64,000 nucleotides of DNA from Pacificispira spongiicola (GTDB lineage Bacteria; Pseudomonadota; Alphaproteobacteria; UBA8366; Aestuariispiraceae). The DNA lies in the NCBI RefSeq assembly GCF_012926505.1, contig NZ_JABBNT010000002.1:1-64000 (forward strand). Reading direction: 5' to 3'. Position numbers and translations under genes: made by a program. The notes beneath the pieces were generated by a model. That model saw only the letters and a program-made list of their open reading frames with translations, was not told the DNA's origin and did not search any database. Position 1 is the stretch's first letter. Each line of letters begins with the position of its first letter. Of this stretch, positions 47,454 through 62,731 are shown piece after piece.

Positions 47454-48890
47454 CTATCTTATCTTTGTCATTTCCTGGACCGTAACTTTAGAAACCCGCC
47501 AAACATAACGATTTGCGCCGAATCTCGCTCGACCAGGCCATCTTCCGGTACTCTTTTTAGCCATTTCGTCTCCGAGAGAAATCGAAATCACGTCGCCCCG
47601 CTTCACCTTCCCTGCCTCAACCGCTTGCCCGAGGTCGTTCCCCCAGATCGTCGCCGGTGCGCGATCGCCTGTCCGGATCGTAACGAAGTAAGAGTCCGGA
47701 GCGCCCTCTTTATGTCGATAAGGTGCCTTGCCGTGGTCAAGAAGGATCGTCTTCTCAGGCACCTTCGGCTCCATCGAACGAGCCGCCGCACTTTTGGCGA
47801 CCTCCGAGGTCCTTCGCGCGGGTCTCGACGCATCTGCCCCCACCAACAGATCCAGCAGGCCTCGATGACTGAGGATCAGCGCCATCGCGAGCGGATCGAT
47901 CAGCGCATCTGCATAGAGAAAGGCCTTCCAGTTTCGATAGAGTTTCCCGACCAGGCTCGGCGCCTTCGCCTGGCGTCCGCGCATTGTCACATAGTGCCGC
48001 CACATCGACCCCATGCCCGCCAGACGCTTTGACGGCCGCACCCGGTTGAACCGGGTCACTTTTGCTGGCGCCGTACGCCGAGACGGCTCGAACGCGCCTA
48101 GCTTCTCCTCCAGGGCCTTCCGGGAGAAGTTCCGGCCAAGCGTGCTGGCCTTGATTCCCTTCCCGCCTTTGAGCGTCAGCAGCGCCAAGCCGTTACCGCG
48201 TTTGGCAAAGGCGAGGCCTTCCTTCGCGGCGAGGTCCTGGAGCTGCGCCCAGGTCGTCGCCTGTCCAAAGACCTCAGCCAGACGCTCACGGTGCTCCAGG
48301 ATCTTGCGCTCCGTCGACGCCTCCCAGGTCGTCGCCTCGTAATCGCGTGCCTTGGGCGTCAACAGGCGTTCGATCGGGTCCTTGTCCTGGGTGATACCGG
48401 GCTGAAGCCCGTATTTCTGCTCCATGGCGCGACAGGTCCGGGCGAGCGCCTTAAAATCCTGCCTCGGCTCGTGGATCGTCAGCTTCTCCGGGTGGATCTT
48501 CGAATAGGCAATATGGATGTGATAGTGATCCGTATTGTCATGGGTACCGGCAACACGGGCGTGATCCTCGAAGCCGAGCGCCTGGGCGAAGTGCCGCTCG
48601 ATGTCCTTCAGCACGTCCAGCTCCGGCTTTTCGCCGGCGGCGAAGCTGACGACGAGGTGATAGGTCTTGTCGGCCTGGGAACGGGTATTGAGACTATGCG
48701 CCGCCATGATCTCCTTTACCGCCAGGTCGAGATCCTCCCGCTCCGTGCCGGCATCGGCATTCACGATCCACAGATGATCGAGCTTCTCGTCGCCCTCCTT
48801 GGCGGCCGCGATGTAATAGGCGCGCTTGGAGAAGGGCGGCGGTTTTCCCGCCGCCCTGTCCTTCTTTTCCATAACCTTATGCGCGATCAT
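47454..48890 (-). CDS. Relaxase/mobilization nuclease (MOBP-like)
   Basis: 478 residues. The relaxase domain (about 1-180) holds the three-His metal motif in HDNTDHYHIHIA (117-128), with Tyr25/Tyr26 as candidate nucleophiles. The C-terminus (about 400-478) reads FVTIRTGDRAPATIWGNDLG, then VEAGKVKRGDVISISLG, a domain found at the end of many conjugative relaxases. It nicks oriT and pilots the DNA strand. It follows the MobC-like gene by 2 bases. The missing primase function is supplied by the fusion gene at 49233. Confidence 0.9.
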   Translation of the reverse strand: MIAHKVMEKKDRAAGKPPPFSKRAYYIAAAKEGDEKLDHLWIVNADAGTEREDLDLAVKEIMAAHSLNTRSQADKTYHLVVSFAAGEKPELDVLKDIERHFAQALGFEDHARVAGTHDNTDHYHIHIAYSKIHPEKLTIHEPRQDFKALARTCRAMEQKYGLQPGITQDKDPIERLLTPKARDYEATTWEASTERKILEHRERLAEVFGQATTWAQLQDLAAKEGLAFAKRGNGLALLTLKGGKGIKASTLGRNFSRKALEEKLGAFEPSRRTAPAKVTRFNRVRPSKRLAGMGSMWRHYVTMRGRQAKAPSLVGKLYRNWKAFLYADALIDPLAMALILSHRGLLDLLVGADASRPARRTSEVAKSAAARSMEPKVPEKTILLDHGKAPYRHKEGAPDSYFVTIRTGDRAPATIWGNDLGQAVEAGKVKRGDVISISLGDEMAKKSTGRWPGRARFGANRYVWRVSKVTVQEMTKIR

Positions 48891-48892
48891 CG

Positions 48893-49225
48893 CTAGATTG
48901 TCCGAACGATGGCCTTAAGGCGGTCCTGAAGGACCCGGATATCGCCGATGAGCTCCTCGACGGAGCAGGTCCCGTCCGGCGTATCCGTCCGCCATCCGTC
49001 GTCATCGAGCGCGAGGCGCAGCAGGTTGCCGAGCCGGGCCTGGTCCGCATTCACCTTCAGGAGATCGCGGATCGTATTCGCCCGCTCCGGCGCCGGTACC
49101 GAGAGGCCCGTCACGATCCGGCGGATGTAATCGGAGATCGAGAGATTGGCGGCGCCGGCCTTGGCGACCAGCTCCGCCTTCTCCTCGACCTCCAGATAGC
49201 ACTTGGTGAGTTTCTTCTTTCCCAT
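48893..49225 (-). CDS. MobC/TraJ-like relaxosome accessory protein
   Basis: 110 residues: ribbon-helix-helix-like N-terminus (KCYLEVEEKAELVAKAGAAN, then LSISDYIRRIVTG) and a helical C-terminus (VNADQARLGNLLRLALDDD). This matches accessory proteins that bind oriT beside MOBP relaxases. It is tightly coupled to the relaxase gene (2-base gap) and 7 bases after the ArdC/primase gene. Confidence 0.82.
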   Translation of the reverse strand: MGKKKLTKCYLEVEEKAELVAKAGAANLSISDYIRRIVTGLSVPAPERANTIRDLLKVNADQARLGNLLRLALDDDGWRTDTPDGTCSVEELIGDIRVLQDRLKAIVRTI

Positions 49226-49232
49226 GGTGCCG

Positions 49233-51365
49233 TCACATCGCCAGGGACTGAGCGCGTCCCGCCGTCTTGCGCTCCCCCGCGTTGCGCTCCGGAGAGCCCG
49301 AGCGCGGCCGGCCGATCACCGCATCGAAGATATCCTTCACGACCGCCTTGCCGGCACTCCGGGCTTTGTCGTTGAAGTCGGTCATGCCGGCCTCGCGCTC
49401 CGCCGGCGTCAGACCCGGATTGACCGCGATTCCGCCGACCGCCTTCGCCGCCTCCTCACCCTTGCGGAGACCGGCGTTCCGGTCCTTGGCGTGATCGTCA
49501 TCGGCAGCGACGAAGATCCGCGCCTCGGGATAGGTCTCCCGGATCGTCTCGGCCACGGGGCGTAGATTGCCGGCGTCAAAGGCTACGACGACGGGATAGC
49601 CGGTCGCCTCGTGGATCGTTGCCGCCGTCGAATAGCCCTCGCCGATCACAACGGGGCCTTTCGCGTCGATCTCACCGATGACGTGATAGAGACCGGCCTT
49701 GCGGCCACCCTTCAGGAAGCGCTTTTCGCCTTCCGGCGAGATCCGTTGGATGTTCCAGGTCTTCCCGGCCGCATCGCGCAGCGGCACCATCAACTGACCT
49801 GTCGCATCTTCGAGCAGACCATGCGCCGCCACACCCTTCGCCAGGAGATAGGGATGTTCGGGCGACGGCGCTCCTCGTTCCGAGGCGGTCCGCCATTGCA
49901 CGTCGCTCCAGGTCGCGGCGAGCTCCTGCCTTTCCTGAAGCTCCCTCTCCCGCTCCACCCGGCGTTCCTCGACCGCACGGCGGGCGCGATCGATCTCCTC
50001 CTTGGATAGCGTATTGCCGGTCGCAACCCATTTGAGGGATTTCTCGCCGGTCTTGAAGTTCATCGCTTGGCCGTTCGGTGCCCCATCCAGGAAGCCGCGA
50101 TAAGAGCCGGATTTCTGGCCGGGCTTGTCGCCCTCGACCGAGACGCGATGCCAGTCGCCGTCCATCTGGGGGGCGCCGTCGATCTGGAGGCCGGCGTCCT
50201 GAAGGAAGATTGTAAACTCGGCAACAGGATCGACCTCATTGCGCGCCTTGTCGCTGGGCGTGACCCACCGGGCCAGCTGGTCGAGATCCGCCCCGTCCGG
50301 CGCGTACCAGGATTTGGCGCGCTTGTCCCATTTGGCGCCGGCGGCCTTGGCAGCTTCCTTTTCCTCGAAGGGGACCGTCAGGAAGTGGCGGGTTTTGCTC
50401 TCTGGCTCGGCTGTCTGCATGGCCTGCTCCTGTTGCGGGGATTGAGTACGGCCCTGCTGGGCGATGCGCTCCAGCTCCTGGCGGCGCTCCGGCTCCATCA
50501 CCCAGGACCGGATGATCTCGGCATCCCGCGCCGCGCGGAACAGCACGTTGCGATCCTCCTTGATCGCCTTCAGCCAGGAGCCGACATAGCCGGCATGGCG
50601 TTCCGGATAATGGCCGAGCGACAGATCGCGGCCGACCATATAGGCCGACATTTCCGCGCGGAGCTCCTCGATCGCATAGGTCTCGGACCCGAAGGGACCG
50701 AACTCCCGCGCGAGCCGGCTTTCATGGCCGCTGGCATGTCCCAGTTCGTGCAGCGCCGTTGCGTAGTATTCGTAGGCGCTCGGGAAGGCCGCCTTATGCG
50801 GCAGATGGATGCGATCCTCCCTCGGCGTGTAAAAGGCGCGGTCGGCCTGATCGTGACGGATATCGACACCGCCGGCCGCCAGAACCCGTTCCGCCTCCTC
50901 GACCGGCTCGAAGCGGATCGGCGGGGCCTGGAACGGTTCGATCCCGTCGATCTGGTCGCCGTTGAAGACATTGGCGTAGAAGACCTGCGGCCGCTCGAGG
51001 CGATACTCGACCGTTTGCGGCTTCCCGGCCTCATCCAGCACCGGCCTGCCGTCCCCGTCGAGAAGGGCGCTGCGCTCGGTCCATTTCCAATACTCGACGG
51101 AGGTCGATCGCTCCCCCTTTCGGACCTGGCCGCCCAACTCCTGCGCCTGGCGATAGGTCAGCCAACGCGGATCGACCCAGCCCTGCAGTTCCAGCCACCA
51201 GGCATTGATGCCGCGATAGGGCTTGTTGGAGATCGGATTGAATGGCGCCGAGATGCCGACATTGGGCTCCCAGGGTTTCTGCCAGGAGGCCTCGCCCTGT
51301 TCGATCAATCGGGTGAACTCCTCGGCGACGGTCTCGCGGAAGGGTTTGCGGGTGTCAGTCGCCAT
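49233..51365 (-). CDS. ArdC-like antirestriction / TOPRIM primase fusion
   Basis: 710 residues in three parts. 1-310: ArdC-like region with ssDNA-binding N-terminus and metallopeptidase motif HELGH (206-210) followed by E in EELRAEMSAYM. About 328-370: DUF5710 (VPFEEKEAAKAAGAKWDKRA, then KSWYAPDG). 500-690: TOPRIM primase of TraC type (GPVVIGEGYSTAATIHEATG, then IFVAADDDHAKDRNAG). Such proteins protect incoming single-stranded DNA from restriction and prime its second strand. The fusion is common in alphaproteobacterial conjugative elements. Confidence 0.88.
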   Translation of the reverse strand: MATDTRKPFRETVAEEFTRLIEQGEASWQKPWEPNVGISAPFNPISNKPYRGINAWWLELQGWVDPRWLTYRQAQELGGQVRKGERSTSVEYWKWTERSALLDGDGRPVLDEAGKPQTVEYRLERPQVFYANVFNGDQIDGIEPFQAPPIRFEPVEEAERVLAAGGVDIRHDQADRAFYTPREDRIHLPHKAAFPSAYEYYATALHELGHASGHESRLAREFGPFGSETYAIEELRAEMSAYMVGRDLSLGHYPERHAGYVGSWLKAIKEDRNVLFRAARDAEIIRSWVMEPERRQELERIAQQGRTQSPQQEQAMQTAEPESKTRHFLTVPFEEKEAAKAAGAKWDKRAKSWYAPDGADLDQLARWVTPSDKARNEVDPVAEFTIFLQDAGLQIDGAPQMDGDWHRVSVEGDKPGQKSGSYRGFLDGAPNGQAMNFKTGEKSLKWVATGNTLSKEEIDRARRAVEERRVERERELQERQELAATWSDVQWRTASERGAPSPEHPYLLAKGVAAHGLLEDATGQLMVPLRDAAGKTWNIQRISPEGEKRFLKGGRKAGLYHVIGEIDAKGPVVIGEGYSTAATIHEATGYPVVVAFDAGNLRPVAETIRETYPEARIFVAADDDHAKDRNAGLRKGEEAAKAVGGIAVNPGLTPAEREAGMTDFNDKARSAGKAVVKDIFDAVIGRPRSGSPERNAGERKTAGRAQSLAM

Positions 51366-51816: not shown

Positions 51817-52045
51817 ACTTGATCCCGTCTAGGAACCAGCGGACCTCGACACCGAGCCGTTCGGCGAAGGTCAGGAGTTCCGAGTTCCGCATCTTCCGGA
51901 AGCCGAGTTCGTAATCCCGAAGCGTCTCCACAGCGACGCCGGTCTCCTCGGCGAAGACCTCCCGGCTCAATCCGGCTTCCTCGCGCCGCAGCCGCAACCG
52001 CGAGCCGACCGCATAATCGATCTCGCTCATGATGCGTTTGGTCAT
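51779..52045 (-). CDS. XRE-family transcriptional regulator
   Basis: 88 residues with one clear helix-turn-helix: SRLRLRREEAGLSREVFAEE, then TGVAVETLRDYELGFRKM. C-terminal helices include LTFAERLGVEVRWFLDG, an HTH_3-type tail. It overlaps the virD4 stop by 4 bases (ATGA), so it is made from the transfer transcript and may adjust transfer gene expression or its own downstream genes. Confidence 0.85.
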   Translation of the reverse strand: MTKRIMSEIDYAVGSRLRLRREEAGLSREVFAEETGVAVETLRDYELGFRKMRNSELLTFAERLGVEVRWFLDGIKFTAVPRQEGSGA

Positions 52046-53907
52046 GCTGTCCCTCCCCCGTTCAAAGCCTGTTCGTAACGATCAACCGGCGACAGGGTCG
52101 CAGCCGGCGTCGGCGGCGCGGCCGGTTCCGTCGGCACGGTCTCCTCACCTTCCACGCCCGGCCCCGGCGCCGGCATGCGGGCACGACGCAGCAGTTCCTT
52201 GTCTTGGAAGTAGAGGGTCTGTCGGCCCAGGATCGGCGCTGAACCGGACGGGAAGATCAGCATGTCGCCGGCGCGCGTGGCGTTGCCCTTCCAATCCTTC
52301 TCCAACCCGCGCAGTTTCATGCATTCGTCGACGGTCATAAGCGGGCGCGTCGTCTCCTGAAGGCTTTCCGAGACGCTGCCGATCGCAGACCCGGCCGCGC
52401 CGGACCGCGACCGCTTGCGCTGCACGACGGTGGTGGTGCCGGCCATCTTGGAGAGCGTCTCGGCCGTCTCGACCTCGTTGGGCGCGGCGGCGATCCGGAT
52501 ATGGCAATTGGCCGTGATCGCCTCGTCGCGGCCGTATTCCTTCCGCAACTGGCGTAGGTCCTGGATGATGATGAAGGCCTTCAGCCCGTAGCCGGCCATG
52601 AAGGCGAGCGCGCGTTCGAAGATCTCCAGCTTGCCGACCGACGTAAACTCATCGAGCATCAACAGGAGACGGTGCTTGTATCCCTTGAGGCTGCGCCCCT
52701 CGCCGAAGGCCATCTCCGAGGTAAGCCGCCGGAGGAACTGGTTCATCAGAATACGCGTCAGCGGCCGCAACCGGTCGATATCCGACGGCGGGATGACGAT
52801 ATAGAGCGACGCCGGCCGATCGCCGTTCATCAGATCGTCGAGCCGGAAGTCGCTTTCCGCGATATTCTTCGAGACGATCGGATCGGCATAGAGCGCCAAT
52901 TGCACGGCGGCCGAACTGTGGACGCCGGAACGCTCCGGATGCGCCTTGATGCGCATCTTGGACGCGCCGCGACGGACCTCGTCATCAACGAGATCCAGAC
53001 CATGATCGAACGCCAGAATGTCATCCAGGAAGGCGTCAAAACTGTCTTCGCCGCCGGCGCCGCCCTCGCCGATCGAGACCGCCGACATGAACCGGTTCAC
53101 GTCCTTCAGATTGGCCCGCCGGTCGTCGTCGCGCTCGACGCGGTAGGTCACATGCAGGATGACGACGGAGAGCCATTCCCAACCGGACTGCATCCAGAAG
53201 TCCTTCAGCCCCTTGCCGTCCGGATCGATGATCATCGAGGCGATGTTCTGACAATCCTCGATAATGTGGCCGGAACCGACCCGGACTTCTCGAAGCGGGT
53301 TGTAGCGGATCGATCCGACCGGGGCCGTCGGCTCAAAGCGCAGGATGCGCTGTCCGATGGAGGCGCGATAACCGGCGGTCAGCGCATAGTTCTCGCCCTT
53401 GATGTCGAGCACCAGGACCGAGTCCGGCCAGGTCAGCAGCGTCGGGATGACAAGCCCGACGCCCTTGCCGGACCGGGTCGGCATGAAAGCCATGACATGC
53501 TCCGGCCCGTCATGGCGCAGGGTCTGGATCTTGCGCCAGGTCTTCCAGCCCCCGACCACGACACCACGCGGCGAGAACAAGCCCGCCTTGCGGATCTCGG
53601 AGACCCTTGCCCAGGCGGCGGAGCCGTGCAGCGCCTTGGAGCCGCGCCCGCCATGCAGGGTCGCTGCCGAGGCGCGCGATGCGAGGACCAAGACGACGAG
53701 AGCGCCGAGGATCATGCCGCCACCGGCGTAATAGGTCGGATACAGCAGGTCCGCCGGCAGACCGCCGGTCCGGCGCACCACCTGCCAAAGCCATTGCCAC
53801 CATCTTGCATCTTGCCATTGGAAGCCGATGGCTTCGCGCCACCGCCACAGGACGAAGACGCCACCCAACACCGGAAGGCTCAGAAGCGAGAGGCGGATCG
53901 CGATCAT
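52042..53907 (-). CDS. virD4: Type IV coupling protein VirD4/TraG
   Basis: 621 residues. Two N-terminal membrane helices (LSLLSLPVLGGVFVLWRW, MILGALVVLVLASRASA), Walker A in MPTRSGKGVGLVIPTLLTWP, Walker B in LLLMLDEFTSVGKLEIFERA and the family end CMKLRGLEKDWKGNATRAGD. The coupling protein brings the relaxosome to the secretion channel and powers DNA transfer. Its start overlaps the VirB11 stop by 4 bases. Confidence 0.95.
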   Translation of the reverse strand: MIAIRLSLLSLPVLGGVFVLWRWREAIGFQWQDARWWQWLWQVVRRTGGLPADLLYPTYYAGGGMILGALVVLVLASRASAATLHGGRGSKALHGSAAWARVSEIRKAGLFSPRGVVVGGWKTWRKIQTLRHDGPEHVMAFMPTRSGKGVGLVIPTLLTWPDSVLVLDIKGENYALTAGYRASIGQRILRFEPTAPVGSIRYNPLREVRVGSGHIIEDCQNIASMIIDPDGKGLKDFWMQSGWEWLSVVILHVTYRVERDDDRRANLKDVNRFMSAVSIGEGGAGGEDSFDAFLDDILAFDHGLDLVDDEVRRGASKMRIKAHPERSGVHSSAAVQLALYADPIVSKNIAESDFRLDDLMNGDRPASLYIVIPPSDIDRLRPLTRILMNQFLRRLTSEMAFGEGRSLKGYKHRLLLMLDEFTSVGKLEIFERALAFMAGYGLKAFIIIQDLRQLRKEYGRDEAITANCHIRIAAAPNEVETAETLSKMAGTTTVVQRKRSRSGAAGSAIGSVSESLQETTRPLMTVDECMKLRGLEKDWKGNATRAGDMLIFPSGSAPILGRQTLYFQDKELLRRARMPAPGPGVEGEETVPTEPAAPPTPAATLSPVDRYEQALNGGGTA

Positions 53908-54866
53908 GCGCCGGTCTCCTTCCCGTCCTTCAAGACGAAGCGGTCGGCGCGCGGCTCATAGATATCGGTGATGCGGCGGAAGCCGGAACTGTCGCGCTTG
54001 ATCTGCACCACCACGTCGACCAGTTCGGAGAGGAACTCCGGCACACGCGGCATGGTCTCTCCGGACCAGGCGATGTTCTGATCGAACTTGCGATGGATCG
54101 CTTGATGCGGGCTCTCCGCGTGGATCGTGCACATGAAGCCGGTGACGCCGCTATTCAGCGCCGCCAGGGCCGCAAAGGCGTTCTGCGTCGAGATCTCCCC
54201 GAAGACGATGTGATCCGGCGTCGCGCGCATAAGGTGGTCGTAGAGCTGACGCCAGGTCTGGAGACCGGTCGCGTGGCTGCCGCCCTCCTCCCGGGCCGCG
54301 ATCAGGCCGACGCCGTCCCAGAACCGGCCAAGCGACAGTTCGGGCGTATCCTCGACCCCGATCACCCGGCGATGGTCCGGAAGACCGGCCAACAGCATGT
54401 TCAACAAAGTCGTCTTACCGGTATTGGTCGCGCCCGAGACGATCAGGTTGCGCTCCCCGTCGACCGCGTCCGTTAAATAACGAACCACCGCCTCCGATGC
54501 CCCTACCTGATCCCAACTCGGCGTGAAGGGATGTTTGCAACGGATCGCCAGCGACAGGCCGGACTGGACCGACGGGCCGACCAGGCATTCGAAGCGATGC
54601 CCGCCCGGCAGCACGCAGGAGAGTTTGGGTCGGTCCTCTCCGTTAAAGCCCAGGCCATGATAGTTGCCGAGCGACCGCGCGACCGCCTCGACGGCCGCAA
54701 GCGTCAATCCCTCGTCCCTGACCGCTTGCTTCCCCGTTCCCCGCCGATCGGTGATGACGATCCCGGGCTTGGTCATGCGGATCTCGACGGTCGCCGGATC
54801 GTCGTAATGGGCCGAGAGCGGCGCCAGGGTCTCGCGCAGCAGCGGGCTGATCGCGATGTTGCCCAT
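53904..54866 (-). CDS. virB11: Type IV secretion ATPase VirB11/TrbB
   Basis: 320 residues from the ATG at 54866, chosen for the GGAGGG box upstream and a TGATG coupling to the preceding gene. Traffic-ATPase core: Walker A SGATNTGKTTLLN, Asp box GVEDTPEL, Walker B ATPDHIVFGEISTQ (GEI) and the His box MCTIHAESP. It forms a hexamer that powers pilus building and substrate transfer. N-terminal features are as in TrbB (RETLAPLSAHYDDPATVEI). Confidence 0.95.
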   Translation of the reverse strand: MGNIAISPLLRETLAPLSAHYDDPATVEIRMTKPGIVITDRRGTGKQAVRDEGLTLAAVEAVARSLGNYHGLGFNGEDRPKLSCVLPGGHRFECLVGPSVQSGLSLAIRCKHPFTPSWDQVGASEAVVRYLTDAVDGERNLIVSGATNTGKTTLLNMLLAGLPDHRRVIGVEDTPELSLGRFWDGVGLIAAREEGGSHATGLQTWRQLYDHLMRATPDHIVFGEISTQNAFAALAALNSGVTGFMCTIHAESPHQAIHRKFDQNIAWSGETMPRVPEFLSELVDVVVQIKRDSSGFRRITDIYEPRADRFVLKDGKETGA

Positions 54867-57001
54867 CACCAGCCCTCCGCCTGGTTCCATTCGGTCGTGG
54901 AAGAACCGAAGTAGACAGAGCCGTCAGCCGAGAACCCGTCGCGCGTCACCAAATTTGGGTTGGGACTGCACCCAGCCGCTTGATAGATGATGGTGTGAGA
55001 ACTGTTGGACACCTGGACAATAGCTTGCCCGTCGTCACGCTGAAGCACCCGCTCTCCGCGATAAACTCGATAAATCACCTGATTGCTGTAACCGTAGGAG
55101 CATCCGCCCGATTGCGAATATTGGCTCCCGTCGACGTAACGCCAGGTCGGGGTCTGAACGACCGAAGAACAGGCGTCCTCGGAATAAGGAACACCGTCCC
55201 CGATCGGCTTCTTGTAATCCGTCCCATCCGGTCGCTCATGGATTTCATAAACTGTTGTCAGCCGCAGCGCATCGCAGCCGGCATATTCCGACTGTCCGTT
55301 CCATTCCGTGACACTGTTTTGGAAGACATAGGGCTGCTGGACGGCACCGTTCAGGACCGTCGCCGTCGTGATGTCATAGCGGCCGGAAGCCGGTTCGATA
55401 TAGACCGTGCTCAGCGGCAGCGCGTAGAGCTGATCGTCGTGGTTCTGCCAACCGTTGGTCTCGTGCTGATGCGGCACCGCCGCCAACACGACGGATTCTT
55501 GGCATTCCGTAACCCGAACCTGTTTGCCGTCTTCCGTAAAATAGTACCGATCCTTCGGATAGGACCAACCGCCGGCGACGTCGTGGCGCCACAGCGCCGG
55601 GCTTGCGCAGCCCTCTTCCGTCCGTGTGACCGTCTTATCCGCATCCGGCGTGCAGTCGGTAATGAAGGCCGGAACCTCGTCGACCGTGATCCGGATCTTC
55701 TTCTGCGCGGCGATCGGTTCGCCACCCGCATCCGTCACCGGGCTGCAGAGGCTCTTCCCGCTCCCGTCGACATAGACCGATTGATGCGGATAGACCGTCT
55801 CGATATCGGCGCAACCGCCATGCTGATATTGGATGCCGTCCAGCTCATAGGTCCAGGCCGCCTGCTGCACGCTCTCCCCCGCGTCCCAATCGTGCCGGAT
55901 GCCGCAAACCGTCGTGCTCTTGACCAGATCGACCGGCGCCTCGCTTTCCGACGCCGCGCAGCCGCGCGCCTCGACCTCCTTATTCGTGTGATTGACGTAA
56001 ACCAGCCGTTCCTGAGGGGTCGCCGTCTCGGCGGTCACATCGACTTCGATCTTGCAGGCAGCGGCCACGATATCGAAGACCAGGTCCTCGTCCGCCAGAC
56101 AATCGTCGCCGACATCCTGACGGTTGCCACCGCCATCGACATAGTAAGGCTGATATTGAGCGGTCGCCTTGCGGGCCTCCAAATCCTCGTTGTAAGCGCA
56201 GGACGCATAACTCCGCTTGATCGGATAGCTCACGCCGCTGTCGGAGCATTCCGTCTCGGAACTCACCACCCCATCGGTCAGCGTCAATCGCTTGTTCTGG
56301 ACCTTTGCCAGTTCCGCATCGAGATCCACATCGATGAAGCAGCCCTCCGTCGTGATCATCGAGGTTTCGATCGGATCGGCGCTTTGCGTCACCGTGACGG
56401 CTTCAGGCGTTTTGTAAGAACCCGCCTGATCGTTCTGCGTCCCGCTGCCGCCGACTTCCCGCGCCCCGTTATCCTCCGCCTGGACGATCTGCTGCGACTC
56501 TTCCTCCGAGGGTGCCCCGTCCGGCTCGGCCAATCGGCGCAGGGCCGCGACCAGTTCCGGCCCGTCCCCCTTGATGGTGACGGATTGCGTGTTCAACGCC
56601 GCGTCTTCCAGATCGAACTGGGCCGCGAACTTCTCCGGCGTCAGCGCTTCCTGCTTTGCCCCCTTGGCAACGCCGGTCAGCACCACCTGGCCGATCTTGC
56701 GCCCGTCCACATCGACATAGCGCGCAAAGCCCTTCGCGGTGACGCCGGTCGCCAGCCCGGGCTCCGCGCCCGGCACCGAGACCAGGCTCAGATCCACCGC
56801 GACCGGCTCACCCGAAGCCAGAGGCACTACCGCCGGCGACCGGGCAACGATATCGACGAGCTGCGTCAGACTGTCCTCTGACGTTCCTGTCGTTTCCGCC
56901 GGTTCTGAGGATGTTGTCTGTGCCAGGACCGGGACGCTCAGCGCCGGCGCCGGCAGAATAAAGCCAGCCAGCACGGCGGCCATGAGATGCCGTTTCATCA
57001 T
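54866..57001 (-). CDS. Exported cysteine-rich repeat protein inside the transfer operon
   Basis: About 711 residues with a Sec signal (HLMAAVLAGFILPAPALS). The N-terminal third (to about residue 215) is Cys-free and mildly acidic. The rest has 16 cysteines in an ordered pattern. Two blocks of about 85 residues match closely: Cys-x30-Cys-x15-Cys-x32-Cys and Cys-x31-Cys-x17-Cys-x30-Cys; later blocks repeat WTYELDGIQYQHGGC-like ends (WRYVDGSQYSQSGGC). It overlaps virB10 by ATGA and virB11 by TGATG, so it is translated with the secretion core. It may be surface-exposed and disulfide-locked, perhaps a pilus- or contact-related part. I know no family for it. Confidence 0.75.
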   Translation of the reverse strand: MMKRHLMAAVLAGFILPAPALSVPVLAQTTSSEPAETTGTSEDSLTQLVDIVARSPAVVPLASGEPVAVDLSLVSVPGAEPGLATGVTAKGFARYVDVDGRKIGQVVLTGVAKGAKQEALTPEKFAAQFDLEDAALNTQSVTIKGDGPELVAALRRLAEPDGAPSEEESQQIVQAEDNGAREVGGSGTQNDQAGSYKTPEAVTVTQSADPIETSMITTEGCFIDVDLDAELAKVQNKRLTLTDGVVSSETECSDSGVSYPIKRSYASCAYNEDLEARKATAQYQPYYVDGGGNRQDVGDDCLADEDLVFDIVAAACKIEVDVTAETATPQERLVYVNHTNKEVEARGCAASESEAPVDLVKSTTVCGIRHDWDAGESVQQAAWTYELDGIQYQHGGCADIETVYPHQSVYVDGSGKSLCSPVTDAGGEPIAAQKKIRITVDEVPAFITDCTPDADKTVTRTEEGCASPALWRHDVAGGWSYPKDRYYFTEDGKQVRVTECQESVVLAAVPHQHETNGWQNHDDQLYALPLSTVYIEPASGRYDITTATVLNGAVQQPYVFQNSVTEWNGQSEYAGCDALRLTTVYEIHERPDGTDYKKPIGDGVPYSEDACSSVVQTPTWRYVDGSQYSQSGGCSYGYSNQVIYRVYRGERVLQRDDGQAIVQVSNSSHTIIYQAAGCSPNPNLVTRDGFSADGSVYFGSSTTEWNQAEGW

Positions 57002-58086
57002 TCTCCACCTTTCACTTGCTTGAGATACCAATCGAACTGCGGCCGGATCTGGACGCGCGTTCCCTGCGCCACCGTGACGATGGGCTTCAGATTGACCGTC
57101 TGTTCCAGGATCGAGGCGGTGATCTCGCCGAGCTTCTCGCTCAGCTCCTGCGCGCCCGTATCCGCGATACTGGAGATCGCATTGCCGTCATCGGCCACCG
57201 CCGTCGCGGCGCTTGCCAGACGCACGGCCCCGGAGATACCGGCCAGGACAAAGGCCGTGCCGTATTTTTCCCAAAACCGCGTATCGACCTCGCCGGTGAT
57301 CCCGCCGCGTCCCTGCACATCGCCGACCGTCGCCTTCAATTGCAGGATCTCGGCCCGGTGCCCCGCGATCAGGATGCGCTTGCAGGTCAGCGCGATGCGG
57401 GTTTCGCCCAAATTCTCCGGGCTCTTGTAATCGCAGATCAGCCGCGAGCCCTTGGGGATCAGAATATGACGGTCGTGATAGCCGAAGACCGGACGGCTGG
57501 TCTGAATGATGACCTGCCCGCCCTCTTCCGAGCTCACCTGGCTATTGATCCCGGTCTCGACAATCCCGCTGATATAGCGATCGGCCGTCACGATCCGCGC
57601 ATTGTCGACCGGCCCGGTCGAGATCCGGCCTTCCGCCTGATAATGCTCCTCCGGGATCGGCACCGGCGGCGGCGCGATCGCCGCCAGAGGCCTGGCGCTC
57701 AACGGATCGATACCATCGAGATCCGACACGGTCGACGCGGCGATCCGCACAAGGCCCGTATCCTCCGTCGCACGGGCCGGGAGCGCGGCCGCAAGCGCCA
57801 GACGGAACGGGTTCGGCGCCGGCGGCTCAACGAAGACCGGCTCCGGCAGTGCCACAGGCAACGGCGCCACGGGCGCGGCCTGTTCGCGTATGACGATCGG
57901 CGGGAAGTTTGGGGTCGGCGCCGGCGCGGGCGGCGGCGGTTCGGCTACCGGTTCGGGCGGTGGAGGTGGCGCGAAGGTCCAGACCTCCTTGTCCTCCGCC
58001 GGAAGATCGACCGCCTCCGGCGGGGCGCCGGGCTTGCAGATCCCGCCCAGTGTCAGGCCGAGCGCCAAGGCCGCTTCGCAGAGCAT
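56998..58086 (-). CDS. virB10: Type IV secretion protein VirB10/TrbI
   Basis: 362 residues from the ATG at 58086 (TGATG overlap with virB9). A short hydrophobic start (EAALALGLTLGGI), a Pro-rich spacer (about 45-75) and the conserved C-terminal domain: QTSRPVFGYHDRHILIPKGS followed by RLICDYKS, LTCKRILIAG and the barrel/antenna region ITGEVDTRFWEKYGTAFVLA. It spans the envelope as the core channel. The N-terminal membrane part is shorter than in typical VirB10. Confidence 0.9.
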   Translation of the reverse strand: MLCEAALALGLTLGGICKPGAPPEAVDLPAEDKEVWTFAPPPPPEPVAEPPPPAPAPTPNFPPIVIREQAAPVAPLPVALPEPVFVEPPAPNPFRLALAAALPARATEDTGLVRIAASTVSDLDGIDPLSARPLAAIAPPPVPIPEEHYQAEGRISTGPVDNARIVTADRYISGIVETGINSQVSSEEGGQVIIQTSRPVFGYHDRHILIPKGSRLICDYKSPENLGETRIALTCKRILIAGHRAEILQLKATVGDVQGRGGITGEVDTRFWEKYGTAFVLAGISGAVRLASAATAVADDGNAISSIADTGAQELSEKLGEITASILEQTVNLKPIVTVAQGTRVQIRPQFDWYLKQVKGGE

Positions 58087-59066
58087 CACGCCGCCCCTTC
58101 CGGATAGCGGATGCACAGATAGCGCGCCCCGGATTTGAGCGTGATGAGACGCTGCGTGCTCTCGACGATGAAGGTCGCGCCCTGGACGCGCGTATTCACC
58201 AACTCGTCCACGCCGTCGACGGTCACATAGGCCGTCGGAAGCTCCACATCCTTCCACGCCTGACCGAAGCGGATATAGGTGAAGTAGTCGTCCCTAAAGA
58301 CCGTCTCCGGCCGGAGCCCGTCATCGCCCCACAGCTCATACTCGCCCCAGCCCCGCAACCTGTCCGGATCGAAGCGCGCCTCCTGGACATAGTCGCCTTC
58401 TTTGCTTTCCGGGGCGGCGGTTTCCAGCCCGTCGATCGCCTGCGCAAGATCGCCGGCCGGCCGGCCCGCCATCGAACCGGATGATGACATCGAGACCGAA
58501 CCGACAAGATCCGGCCCGTCCTTCTCGATTCCGCCGACCAGGCGCACGACGAAGTCGGTGATATTCTCCGAGTTGAAGGCCTCGGCCCGCAGATAAAAAG
58601 GATAGACTGCGCCCGATGTCCCATAGACGACGAGGTTCGTATCCACCCCCATCGTCAGCGGCTTGACCGCGATCAACCGAGACGATCGCGATTCCACCTT
58701 GAAAGCCGCCGTATCGCCGAGATCGGCCGCCTTGAACATCTCGCCATCCGGCAGTTCTAGGACCGTGACCATCTGTTCGCGCAGCCGGACCTTATACGTA
58801 CAACGCGCGCAGGCCTTGTATTCGAAGACGGCGCTGCCCTCGTCGCCCTCGTCCCAGGCCTCCTGGATCTGTCCTCCGACCCGCGCCCGGCGCATCGCAC
58901 CGAACTGCCCGTCGGCCTGCGCCTCGGCCTGCCGCACAACATCCTCGGAGACCGGCATGGGCGGCGGGTCCGAGGATGGTGGCGGTGTGAACGGGGTTTG
59001 TGCCAGGACCGGGCCAACCGGCAGGCACGACAGAAGGAACGCAGCGGCGAGAAGGTCGCGCTTCAT
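58086..59066 (-). CDS. virB9: Type IV secretion protein VirB9/TrbG
   Basis: 326 residues from the ATG at 59066, giving a signal peptide (LLAAAFLLSCLPVGPVLA). Typical VirB9 beta-strand features: ACARCTYKVRLREQMVTVLE followed by LPDGE, TNLVVYGTSGAVYPFYLRA and the C-terminal domain with DDYFTYIRFGQAWKDVELPT. It builds the outer membrane core with VirB7 and VirB10. ATGA overlap with virB8. Length as expected. Confidence 0.9.
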   Translation of the reverse strand: MKRDLLAAAFLLSCLPVGPVLAQTPFTPPPSSDPPPMPVSEDVVRQAEAQADGQFGAMRRARVGGQIQEAWDEGDEGSAVFEYKACARCTYKVRLREQMVTVLELPDGEMFKAADLGDTAAFKVESRSSRLIAVKPLTMGVDTNLVVYGTSGAVYPFYLRAEAFNSENITDFVVRLVGGIEKDGPDLVGSVSMSSSGSMAGRPAGDLAQAIDGLETAAPESKEGDYVQEARFDPDRLRGWGEYELWGDDGLRPETVFRDDYFTYIRFGQAWKDVELPTAYVTVDGVDELVNTRVQGATFIVESTQRLITLKSGARYLCIRYPEGAA

Positions 59067-59788
59067 GAATTTGCCCTTTCTTTGAGGGAGAGATCGAGGA
59101 CCGTAATACCCAGCGGGTTTTCGAAGCGATCCGCCTCGCGCACCGTCTGCGGCCTGGTCGTAATAGAGAGATAGGCACGGATTTTCCGGGTCTCGACCAC
59201 AGCCCCCCGTCGGGTATCGGTCTGGACCAGGTCGACCGCGTACTTGAAGACGCCGCCATGGAAGCTCTCGATCCGATCGACGCTTTCGACGGTGATCGAT
59301 CGTGTCAGCCCGGTATCGAGCGCGGCCTGAATCGCGCCGCTGTCGATCCGCTCCTTGCGGAAGCGTTCGTAAAACGCCTTGTCCGACATGGCGAAGGCCT
59401 GGCGGAGCCGTTCCGTCTGCGTCACCGGATCGATCTCCAGGAGCGAGCGGACATACCACCGTGCCTTCTGCTCCAGCAGCAGACCGAACCCGTCGACGGC
59501 CTCAGAGATCGGCTCGATCCGGATCAACTGGTTCTCGACCGCATCGTGCCGCACCAGGGCGATCTCCGTCGTCTTCAACGGGAAGAGATGCGAGAGCGCG
59601 GTCAGCGCCGTCGTCAGCGACAGAGCGAGAACCACATTGGTCGCGGCGGAGATGCGGAGCATCCAGGCAAGCCGGCGATGCGCGATCTCGAAGCTGTAGG
59701 GATCGGTGCGGCGCACGGCATCATGCCGCCCGGTCACCGCCTCACGCCGCCGGAAGAGTGCCCGCCCGGGAAGGCTCAGCTCAACCAT
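59063..59788 (-). CDS. virB8: Type IV secretion protein VirB8/TrbF
   Basis: 241 residues: cytoplasmic N-terminus, one membrane helix (RISAATNVVLALSLTTALTA) and a periplasmic NTF2-like domain (RHDAVENQLIRIEPISEAVD, SLLEIDPVTQTERLRQAFAM, FKYAVDLVQTDTRRG). VirB8 is the assembly factor of the channel. Its start overlaps the small lipoprotein gene by 13 bases. Confidence 0.9.
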   Translation of the reverse strand: MVELSLPGRALFRRREAVTGRHDAVRRTDPYSFEIAHRRLAWMLRISAATNVVLALSLTTALTALSHLFPLKTTEIALVRHDAVENQLIRIEPISEAVDGFGLLLEQKARWYVRSLLEIDPVTQTERLRQAFAMSDKAFYERFRKERIDSGAIQAALDTGLTRSITVESVDRIESFHGGVFKYAVDLVQTDTRRGAVVETRKIRAYLSITTRPQTVREADRFENPLGITVLDLSLKERANS

Positions 59789-59960: not shown

Positions 59961-61118
59961 TTATTCTCCTTTCAGATTGGTGAAGCCGGCCTGCATTTTG
60001 TCGCGGTAAGCCTGCGCGATCTCCGCCGCCCGCAGCGCCACCGCGCCCGCCGGTGTGGCGCCGAGTGCCTTGCCGGCAAAGAAGGCGGCATTGGAGGCAG
60101 CCGACCCTGCCGCCCCTTTGGCAGCCCCCATCGCGGCCTGTGTGCCGGATGCGTTCTGGAACGCCTTCCCGGCTGCGATCCCCGACGCGGTCGCGCCGGC
60201 GGTGATGACGCCGACGCCGGTATTGGTCAGCGCGGATTCCGTGATGGAGTTCGCGATCCCTGTTGCCTCGGTCATGAAGGCCGTACCCATCCAGCCGAGC
60301 GCCACGGCCAGGATGAAGGCGGGATTTGTGATCGAGGCCCATTCGCCGACATCGACCCCTTCCTCCCCGACGCCAAGCGACGAGACGCCGTAGAGCATGA
60401 CGGCCAAGGCGGCCGTCGCGCCGAACAGCACCATGAAGGACGAGATCACTGTCTTGACGCCCTTCACCGCCATCTCGCGGCCCCAACCGAAGCCGAAGCC
60501 GAGCATCATGTAGGGCGACAAGGCCGACAGCATCATGATCCGGAAGATCGAGATCACGACCTGGCTGAAGTAGACGATCAGGACGATGCAATAGGGCAGC
60601 AGCAGCACGATCGCCGCCAGGATCATCAGCGGATTGGTGATCGACCACTCCCCGGCGATCTCCCAGGCCATGTTGATGACCTTCATGAGACCTTCCTCGG
60701 CGGCACTCACGAGCGCGTCCATACCGGTGCCAAGATCGCCACCCGCAGGGATAGAACCGCCGCCTTGCCGGCCGACCGTCAGAGCAACGCTCGCCGCCGC
60801 CCCCATTGTCTTCAGAGAGGCTTGATAAACAATATTAACAAGCCCTGGGCCTTGGCCTCCCAGGAGAACGGATGCTACAATCACAAAGATAAATTCTTGC
60901 GAGATCGCAAGCGGATTGGCCCGGCCGATGGAGAGCTTGATGCCTTGGATGACAACCCACACCCCGACGATTGCCATGAACAGCAATTGCATCGGAACAA
61001 GCAGCGCTTGGCTCAGATCCTGGGTGAAGGAGTTCGCGAGGTTCACATACTCCGTCACAATCGGGACGAGCAAGCCCTCCGCTACAACCTCAGAGCCTCC
61101 GAACGTATTACCGGCCAT
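59961..61118 (-). CDS. virB6: Type IV secretion inner-membrane protein VirB6/TrbL
   Basis: About 385 residues from the ATG at 61118 with GAGGAGG upstream. Five or more membrane segments (VPMQLLFMAIVGVWVVIQGI, ITNPLMILAAIVLLLPYCIV, SAFIRIM region, VISSFMVLFGATAALAVMLY), then an Ala/Gly-rich tail. VirB6 forms the inner channel gate. The upstream plus-strand genes at 61138-61987 interrupt the operon here. Two bases separate it from the VirB7-like gene. Confidence 0.9.
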   Translation of the reverse strand: MAGNTFGGSEVVAEGLLVPIVTEYVNLANSFTQDLSQALLVPMQLLFMAIVGVWVVIQGIKLSIGRANPLAISQEFIFVIVASVLLGGQGPGLVNIVYQASLKTMGAAASVALTVGRQGGGSIPAGGDLGTGMDALVSAAEEGLMKVINMAWEIAGEWSITNPLMILAAIVLLLPYCIVLIVYFSQVVISIFRIMMLSALSPYMMLGFGFGWGREMAVKGVKTVISSFMVLFGATAALAVMLYGVSSLGVGEEGVDVGEWASITNPAFILAVALGWMGTAFMTEATGIANSITESALTNTGVGVITAGATASGIAAGKAFQNASGTQAAMGAAKGAAGSAASNAAFFAGKALGATPAGAVALRAAEIAQAYRDKMQAGFTNLKGE

Positions 61119-61137
61119 TGCTGTCCTCCTCGTAGCG

Positions 61138-61632
61138 ATGGTTTTCGGCATCGCTACTCAAGCGAATGCGGCGCCCGTGCGTGCGGATCAGTTCTTTAAT
61201 TTCGATAGGGCTAAGTCTGTTTGGAGCAGTACAAAGGACCTCGCCGCGCTGAACGACTTGGCTGAGCCGCTTGACCCTGGCGACGAGTACAAAAAATGGA
61301 TCAAACGCTATAATGAGAACCCAAACGCCGCAGCCGACGAACCGATCGCGAAGCGCATGAAGGAACTCCACGATCTTTGGCTGACCTACAATGTGTGGAA
61401 CGAGGCCTATCGAATGTATCTCTACGCTCGAGACGGTGCCGGGATGTCTTTCAACCGGGTGCACACAATGCTCGACTGCGCATCGATAGCCATGAAGGCC
61501 AAGCTGTTCACGAACGACTGCAACGCGCTTCCCGACTGGCGGAAGCCGGAGAGCAAACTCCGTGACGAGGAACTCGCCCTGAAGAAGCGCACGCAGATGA
61601 AGCAGAACGGCACTTGGAAGTGGGGAGAGTGA
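61138..61632 (+). CDS. Exported protein of unknown function (insert in virB operon)
   Basis: About 164 residues from the ATG at 61138; the hydrophobic signal-like core AIAVLLVAMVFGIATQANA begins upstream of this codon, so part of the leader is outside the called gene or the start has been lost. Mature part begins APVRADQFFNFDRAKSVW; it is charged and helical with two cysteines (MLDCASIAM, TNDCNALPD). No family recognised. It is on the plus strand, head-to-head with virB6, and coupled to the gene at 61634 by a 1-base gap. Confidence 0.55.
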   Translation: MVFGIATQANAAPVRADQFFNFDRAKSVWSSTKDLAALNDLAEPLDPGDEYKKWIKRYNENPNAAADEPIAKRMKELHDLWLTYNVWNEAYRMYLYARDGAGMSFNRVHTMLDCASIAMKAKLFTNDCNALPDWRKPESKLRDEELALKKRTQMKQNGTWKWGE

Positions 61633-61999: not shown

Positions 62000-62731
62000 T
62001 CACTCCTCCTCTTCCACGGCGATGATGCTGTCGACCGGGACGCCGGCCTTCATGATGAAGGCCGCCTGAAGCTTCAGCATCGTCGCCAGGATCTGGTTCT
62101 GCTGCGCGAGCGCGCGCGCCGTCATGACCTGGCCCTGTGCGATCAGGTTCAGCCGTTCATTGCTCTGTTGCGTGGCCCGAACGTTGGTCTCGTATTCGTC
62201 TGCCGCCTCGTTCAGTTGCACGGCCGTGTCGGCCGCCATGTCACCCTGCGCCAAGGCTTTTGATGTCACATCGACCAGGATGTTTTCGCGGCGCGTGTTG
62301 ACCTCCGCCCGCAGATCCGTCTGCTCGCCAAAGGGCAGAGCGTTCTTATCGGACGGATCGATCCAAAGCGTCTGCCGATAGACGCTCGACCGATCGCAGA
62401 TCGACCCGAAAGATATGTCCTCGAAGTCGAGACTTGGCATGAGTTTTGTGAGGTCGGGCAGCAGGCACTGCGCATCCTGACGAAGCTGGCTCCCGATTTT
62501 CGCCATGTTGAAGACCGGCAAGGTGATTTGTCCCGCCGCGCCGACCGCATCCAGCTGCGATTGCAGTGTCGAGACCATCTCCGTCAGCTGCTCGATCTGC
62601 TTATTAGCCGCCTCAAGCGCCTTTCGCAGTTGCTCGATCGCCACCGCGTCATGCGTCGGGTATTCCGCACTCGCCGGGACCGCGACGATGAGCAGGGCGG
62701 CCGCAACGCCGCTTCTAAGAAGGTGCTTCAT
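62000..62731 (-). CDS. virB5: Type IV secretion protein VirB5/TrbJ
   Basis: 243 residues: signal peptide (AAALLIVAVPASA), long helices (EQLRKALEAANKQIEQLTEM, VSTLQSQLDAV), two cysteines in the middle (AQCLLPD, GSICDRS) and C-terminal helices (ILATMLKLQAAFIMKAG). These are the hallmarks of the pilus-tip component VirB5/TrbJ. It overlaps the upstream 200-residue gene by 4 bases. Confidence 0.87.
   Translation of the reverse strand: MKHLLRSGVAAALLIVAVPASAEYPTHDAVAIEQLRKALEAANKQIEQLTEMVSTLQSQLDAVGAAGQITLPVFNMAKIGSQLRQDAQCLLPDLTKLMPSLDFEDISFGSICDRSSVYRQTLWIDPSDKNALPFGEQTDLRAEVNTRRENILVDVTSKALAQGDMAADTAVQLNEAADEYETNVRATQQSNERLNLIAQGQVMTARALAQQNQILATMLKLQAAFIMKAGVPVDSIIAVEEEE

Follow-up and report, generated by a model that had tools for sequence, protein, structure and literature searches.

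A cysteine-rich repeat protein with an exchangeable C-terminal tip, encoded between virB10 and virB11, as a candidate contact factor of a VirB/VirD4 conjugation lineage

What does a large, exported, cysteine-rich protein do when its gene lies between two core genes of a VirB/VirD4 conjugation machine? The question is raised by a gene of Pacificispira spongiicola, hereafter X, located in the first 64,000 nucleotides of contig NZ_JABBNT010000002.1, the whole stretch of DNA analysed here (the window). Donor adhesins with variable tips choose the recipient in F and IncI plasmids, and a 2023 review found no specific recipient factor for R388 (IncW) or RP4 (IncP) (PMC10516633). On the strength of sequence comparisons, we consider X to be rather probably a lineage-specific accessory of the VirB/VirD4 conjugation machine that serves on the donor surface as an adhesin or as a sensor of the recipient. 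This reading is based on its export signal, its fixed slot in the operon, the purifying selection acting on its body, its repeats, the exchange of its tip and the presence of this tip on a second carrier.

An earlier sequence-only reading had described X as a large exported open reading frame fused to both neighbouring secretion genes, and such is the case: its start overlaps the stop of virB10 by about 4 nt (GGAGAATGATGAAA) and its stop overlaps the start of virB11 to the same extent (GGCTGGTGATGGGC). Pfam searches placed genes for a MobA/VirD2-type relaxase and a NikA-like protein beyond virD4, and the locus is therefore part of a DNA-transfer element (Table 1). The transfer region also encodes, at positions 49233-51365 of the window, a fusion of an ArdC N-terminal domain, a zincin-like metallopeptidase, DUF5710 and Toprim.

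Table 1. Coordinates in the window of X, its parts and the neighbouring transfer genes.
Feature	Coordinates	Strand	Basis
X, exported Cys-rich protein, 711 aa	54866..57001	-	between virB10 and virB11; translation and homologues
Signal-peptide-like N-terminus, residues ~1-28, without lipobox Cys	56918..57001	-	sequence
Cys-free N-domain, residues 46-160, mainly beta with one helix	56522..56866	-	AlphaFold2 pLDDT ~84, conservation
Variable linker, low confidence, residues 162-210	56372..56518	-	pLDDT 28-44
Repeat 1, Cys221-Cys252	56246..56341	-	repeat homology
Repeat 2, Cys268-Cys301	56099..56200	-	repeat homology
Repeat 3, Cys316-Cys348	55958..56056	-	repeat homology
Repeat 4, Cys366-Cys397	55811..55906	-	repeat homology
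Repeat 5, Cys419-Cys450	55652..55747	-	repeat homology
Repeat 6, Cys465-Cys500	55502..55609	-	repeat homology
Possible degenerate repeat (GWQNHDDQL motif) and neck Cys576-Cys611, residues 501-611	55169..55501	-	
Hypervariable exchanged C-terminal tip, residues 612-711, end ..WNQAEGW	54869..55168	-	
virB10 (TrbI family)	56998..58257	-	PF03743 1.7e-37; ORF limits, true start maybe internal
virB11 (T2SSE ATPase)	53904..54890	-	PF00437 5e-17; ORF limits, start likely 54867
virD4 coupling protein	52042..53907	-	PF02534 6e-100
virB9 (CagX family)	58086..59459	-	PF03524 7e-27; ORF limits
virB8	59063..59788	-	PF04335 1e-11
virB6-like	59961..61151	-	PF04610 sub-threshold, 23.5 bits vs cut-off 25.9; position
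Relaxase, MobA/VirD2-type, with TraI-like middle domain	47454..48890	-	PF03432 1.8e-29, PF22863
NikA-like mobilization protein	48893..49225	-	PF21983 3.8e-12

From its N-terminus, X consists of a cysteine-free N-domain, a linker and six two-cysteine repeats, followed by a neck and, at the C-terminus, a tip of about 100-140 residues. A hydrophobic leader with an A-x-A end is common among its homologues, the N-domain bears a conserved motif (GVTAKGFAR...IGQVVL), and neither a lipobox nor an outer-membrane anchor was seen in the sequence. The protein contains exactly 16 cysteines (residues 221, 252, 268, 301, 316, 348, 366, 397, 419, 450, 465, 500, 576, 611, 634 and 678), leaving the first 31% Cys-free, as initially noted from the sequence. 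Among 37 homologues, the first 14 cysteines are conserved at 95-100%, while the last two, Cys634 (76%) and Cys678 (5%), fall in the variable tip. The six repeats (residues ~213-507) are about 49 residues long, contain two cysteines spaced by 30-35 residues and are mutually homologous, with hhalign probabilities of 62-98.6% in 15/15 comparisons between segments of the family alignment, against less than 1% for the negative control, repeats versus N-domain. The modular repeats anticipated by the sequence-only reading are thus retained, and its two matched blocks of about 85 residues give way to six shorter units. Segment 500-572 lacks cysteines, reaches hhalign probabilities of 1-29% against the repeats and may be a degenerate repeat; the neck pair Cys576/Cys611 has no homology to them. 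AlphaFold2, run with 15 sequences, predicted an all-beta repeat region (pLDDT ~90), a disordered linker and a poorly resolved tip; the pTM of X is 0.33 and the mutual placement of its domains is not fixed by the model. The notion of a modular, exported and probably disulfide-bonded protein is supported. In Magnetospirillum molischianum (L055:7797-10829), duplication of the Cys-rich repeat block has produced a 1019-aa open reading frame, and the Roseibium copies of X carry an extra repeat-like insert; hence the length of the putative stalk varies.

Homologues of X, called "hypothetical protein" where annotated, were found at about 30 loci of Alphaproteobacteria, some of them metagenome-assembled, and on one plasmid each of Nitrosospira and Desulfovibrio; their hosts include Thalassospira, Magnetospirillum, Magnetospira, Telmatospirillum, Roseibium, Azospirillum, the betaproteobacterium Nitrosospira and Desulfovibrio ferrophilus. 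Two queries of PLSDB retrieved X homologues from 14 plasmid records. Searched against genome contigs, X alone returned nothing, and a profile of four aligned members recovered 20 loci in GTDB genomes, one of which is merely a fragment beside transposase-like ORFs. The gene order virB6-virB8-virB9-virB10-X-virB11-virD4 is found in essentially all loci with enough flanking sequence, and X occupies the virB10-virB11 gap in all related clusters for which this flank is available. In Thalassospira, 22 copies of X without internal stops occur in 16/29 genomes, and the N-domain and repeats evolve under strong purifying selection (dN/dS 0.02-0.09; 0.015-0.075 for the N-domain), which establishes X as a real gene beyond chance.

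An even sample of Alphaproteobacteria contained X in about 3% of the genomes (10/289). When the nearest virB11 genes in a sample of this kind were ranked, the ten accompanied by X included all seven best-scoring ones; six virB11 loci lacked X, and virB10 was recognisable upstream in one of these, nothing being recognised in the other five. On the VirB11 tree, the distribution of X is explained by at most two changes (one is possible), compared with a mean of 5.6 when labels are shuffled. Given the fixed slot and this clustering, X is, as judged from sequence data, a part stably retained by one T4SS lineage, in line with the earlier supposition that it is special to one family of transfer systems; its constant position in the virB operon and its co-inheritance with virB11 are those of a VirB/D4 (MPF_T-like) component. 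Plasmid pMSR-1 of Magnetospirillum gryphiswaldense MSR-1, a relative that carries X, is typed MPF_T. A point against the conjugation reading is that many plasmids of the family are classified as "non-mobilizable" by MOB-suite, yet several carry relaxases. The genome of P. spongiicola itself has a second T4SS copy on another contig, with X in the same position (L002, G000:C16:38744-40888); this copy is 95% identical to that of the window in virB11 and 78% identical in X, i.e., 86% in the repeats and about 38% in the tip.

Searches of X against Pfam, NCBIfam, PHROGs, PADLOC and PDB sequences gave no significant match, nor did searches of the repeats and tips against known families, and 11 members of the family failed to match Pfam, including Shufflon_N and the type IV prepilin N-terminus. 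The TraN profiles PF06986 and TIGR02750 (Pfam, NCBIfam) did not hit X at E<=0.1, and profile comparison gave no homology to TraN, the hhalign probability between the X family and five TraN proteins being 0.9%. Structural comparisons were equally unrevealing: the best Z score for the whole X model (2.9) is uninterpretable as regards fold membership, as is that of the LptE/CsgG-like rows for the tip model (4.5); Foldseek searches with X models yielded nothing significant (E >= 0.002 for PDB, E >= 0.005 for viral structures), and no receptor-binding fold was recognised for the tip by either approach. X relatives were not found in viral contigs and phages, and no published description of X was found in the open-access literature. 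The view that no VirB component resembles X has therefore held in sequence and profile searches, which matched it to neither a known enzyme nor a known T4SS component.

The strongest functional clue, which the sequence-only reading did not foresee, is the exchangeable hypervariable tip formed by the last ~100-140 residues of X. When pairs of homologues with repeats at least 80% identical (residues 221-576) were compared, the tips were less than 50% identical in 38 of the 51 pairs and at least 60% identical in the other 13, and no pair fell between 50 and 60%. At the DNA level, the Thalassospira loci L010 and L050, whose repeats are ~95% identical, and likewise L040 and L042, share ~90% identity through virB10 and X except for ~360 nt at the tip, where the value is about 30-60%; at the stop of X and in virB11 it is again 80-95%. 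Synonymous divergence follows the same pattern, with dS ranging from 1.6 to saturation in swapped tips versus 0.3-0.9 in the repeats. In other pairs, it is the tip that has diverged more recently than the rest of its gene: tip dS is 0.29, below a core dS of 0.76, for L040 and L054; it is 0.09 versus 0.27 in the repeats for L040 and L041; and the tips of L035 and L040 are 100% identical, with repeats ~95% identical. Tips thus move between genes, and sequence comparisons indicate that their variation is due to cassette exchange by recombination and not to fast point mutation. Inside one tip type, dN/dS is 0.04-0.25. Most tips retain a neck cysteine as well as the R-(E/D)DG and terminal GW motifs, and so vary on a common beta scaffold instead of being unrelated domains.

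As the source of this diversity, a shufflon or a set of silent cassettes was rejected, neither reserve tips nor convincing inverted repeats having been found near X: within the loci, tip copies outside X are limited to a standalone protein described below and to plasmids with a truncated X, and no silent tip was found in the genome of P. spongiicola. A diversity-generating retroelement was likewise rejected, since a search of this genome found no reverse transcriptase and the differences are saturated and include indels.

The standalone protein is encoded by plasmid NZ_CP004389.1 of Thalassospira xiamenensis M-5 (L057:7572-8387), a strain that also has two copies of X on its main contig. It is a separate secreted protein of 271 aa with a signal peptide, in which a short N-terminus is followed by a neck and tip of the X type that share 66% identity with an X tip. 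Its gene adjoins those for PilS, a PilV-like protein matching Shufflon_N below threshold, PilO2 and type IVb pilus ATPase. Although this is a single case, it makes the tip a portable module used in two kinds of cell-contact cluster. The PilV-like gene (L057:10135-11259) is in itself a sub-threshold Shufflon_N occurrence on a marine alphaproteobacterial plasmid.

Taken together with the exchangeable tip, the second carrier makes plausible the suggestion that X is a cell-contact factor, and we envision the following mode of action. X would cross the inner membrane by export, and its N-domain would probably dock where the machine meets the outer membrane, on the VirB9/VirB10 cap, as we infer from its invariant synteny with virB9 and virB10 and its low dN/dS. 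The six repeats, whose homology is established and whose beta structure is predicted, would form an elongated stalk stapled by disulfides within each repeat and hold the tip outside the donor cell. There, the tip could touch a structure of the recipient surface and thereby stabilise or select mating pairs. Recombination in the conserved flanks, as the sequence comparisons show, swaps tips between related elements, which might retarget transfer to other recipients or allow escape from a changed receptor or from a phage that uses the tip.

By analogy, X would work like TraN of F or PilV of R64, without being related to either in sequence. TraN of F has 602 aa and 22 cysteines (PMC10516633); TraN proteins combine a conserved base with a variable tip, the swapping of which changes species specificity (PMC13104618). 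Like TraN, X is large, exported, Cys-rich, encoded inside the transfer operon, and made of a conserved base with an exchangeable hypervariable tip. However, the two share no sequence or profile similarity, the tip of TraN is internal (e.g., residues 230-360 of 912; PMC13104618) whereas that of X is C-terminal and carried by a chain of homologous 49-aa repeats, and TraN belongs to F-type (MPF_F) systems while X has VirB8, VirB9, VirB10, VirB11 and VirD4 as neighbours. The variable C-terminal adhesins of PilV recognise the recipient surface (PMC9045228, PMC10516633). PilV of the R64/TP114-type thin pili (shufflon, PF04917) resembles X in displaying a variable C-terminal tip on a constant N-terminal part, and the X-type tip encoded beside PilS and a PilV-like gene provides a further link; X nonetheless lacks a pilin or Shufflon_N domain, and the reserve cassettes or invertible repeats of a shufflon were found neither in its surroundings nor in this genome. 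Within VirB systems, VirB5 and pilus-tip minor subunits are small, exported and presumed to function in contact. X is additional to the gene in the VirB5 position (62000-62731), three times larger, Cys-rich and built of repeats.

Several features of X would also suit other functions. The hardest alternative to exclude, although we regard it as unlikely, is that the outer-membrane cap or pilus of the T4SS is structurally extended by X, whose tip would vary to escape phages or other predators docking on it and not to choose recipients. Such a role would agree with the purifying selection and the fixed slot, the base domain of pKpQIL TraN is thought to be structural in pilus biogenesis (PMC13104618), and a variable tip is also compatible with phage escape; the occurrence of the tip module on a separate secreted protein of another pilus-bearing cluster is nevertheless more natural for a binding module. 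A surface determinant of entry or surface exclusion, by which recipients displaying the same tip would block transfer, seems still less probable, and this part of the sequence-only reading has lost ground. Exclusion systems typically show variable paired specificities. The variability of the tip is compatible with this role, as are the genomes, including that of P. spongiicola (window copy and L002), that hold two or three copies of X with different tips; on the other hand, no gene within ~8 kb of X co-varies with tip type. For instance, the alignments of L040 with L042 and with L044 are interrupted solely by the tip, by a single gene inserted near virB11/virD4 and by an indel at a distal position, and L041 and L054 possess the L040 tip without this inserted gene.

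A constant N-terminal part followed by a hypervariable C-terminus of ~100-140 aa is equally the layout of CDI/Rhs-like polymorphic toxins, in which case the tip would be the toxin. We judge this highly improbable, as virB11 starts within the stop of X and leaves no space for an immunity gene, and no toxin family was matched among the tips scanned; the lack of any co-varying gene nearby, and the cysteine, R-(E/D)DG motif and terminal GW shared by most tips on one beta fold, also speak against it. The adhesin or sensor reading stays close to what had been proposed from the sequence, which was right in direction and is sharpened here to a probably surface-exposed, tip-swapping contact protein of a VirB/D4 lineage.

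The exchange of the X tip as a cassette between close relatives is new here. We see an even chance that VirB/D4-type conjugation has in X its first recognised adhesin for recipient selection, a repeat-stalk protein unrelated to TraN and PilV that has arrived at their design of a constant base with an exchangeable tip and whose tip modules are shared with a type IVb pilus-bearing transfer cluster; if true, the host range of plasmids might be predicted in part from their tip type. With such a constant, tip-swapping candidate at the surface, recipient choice in this lineage becomes directly testable through one segment of ~300-400 bp, and a family of "hypothetical proteins" known mainly from Alphaproteobacteria, but also met as outliers in Betaproteobacteria and in Desulfovibrio, gains a name and a likely role.

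Some members of the family depart from the usual arrangement. In decaying transfer systems on a plasmid of Roseibium aggregatum S1616 (L011:5986-8721) and at locus L103 (genome G119), X is split into pieces and virB11 is likewise truncated or broken. Finally, X-like repeats adjoin virB10 in three small alphaproteobacterial genomes of 0.9-1.8 Mb (L022, L024 and L025, from genomes G211, G245 and G119, respectively); these are possibly host-associated bacteria, and their T4SS may serve another purpose.
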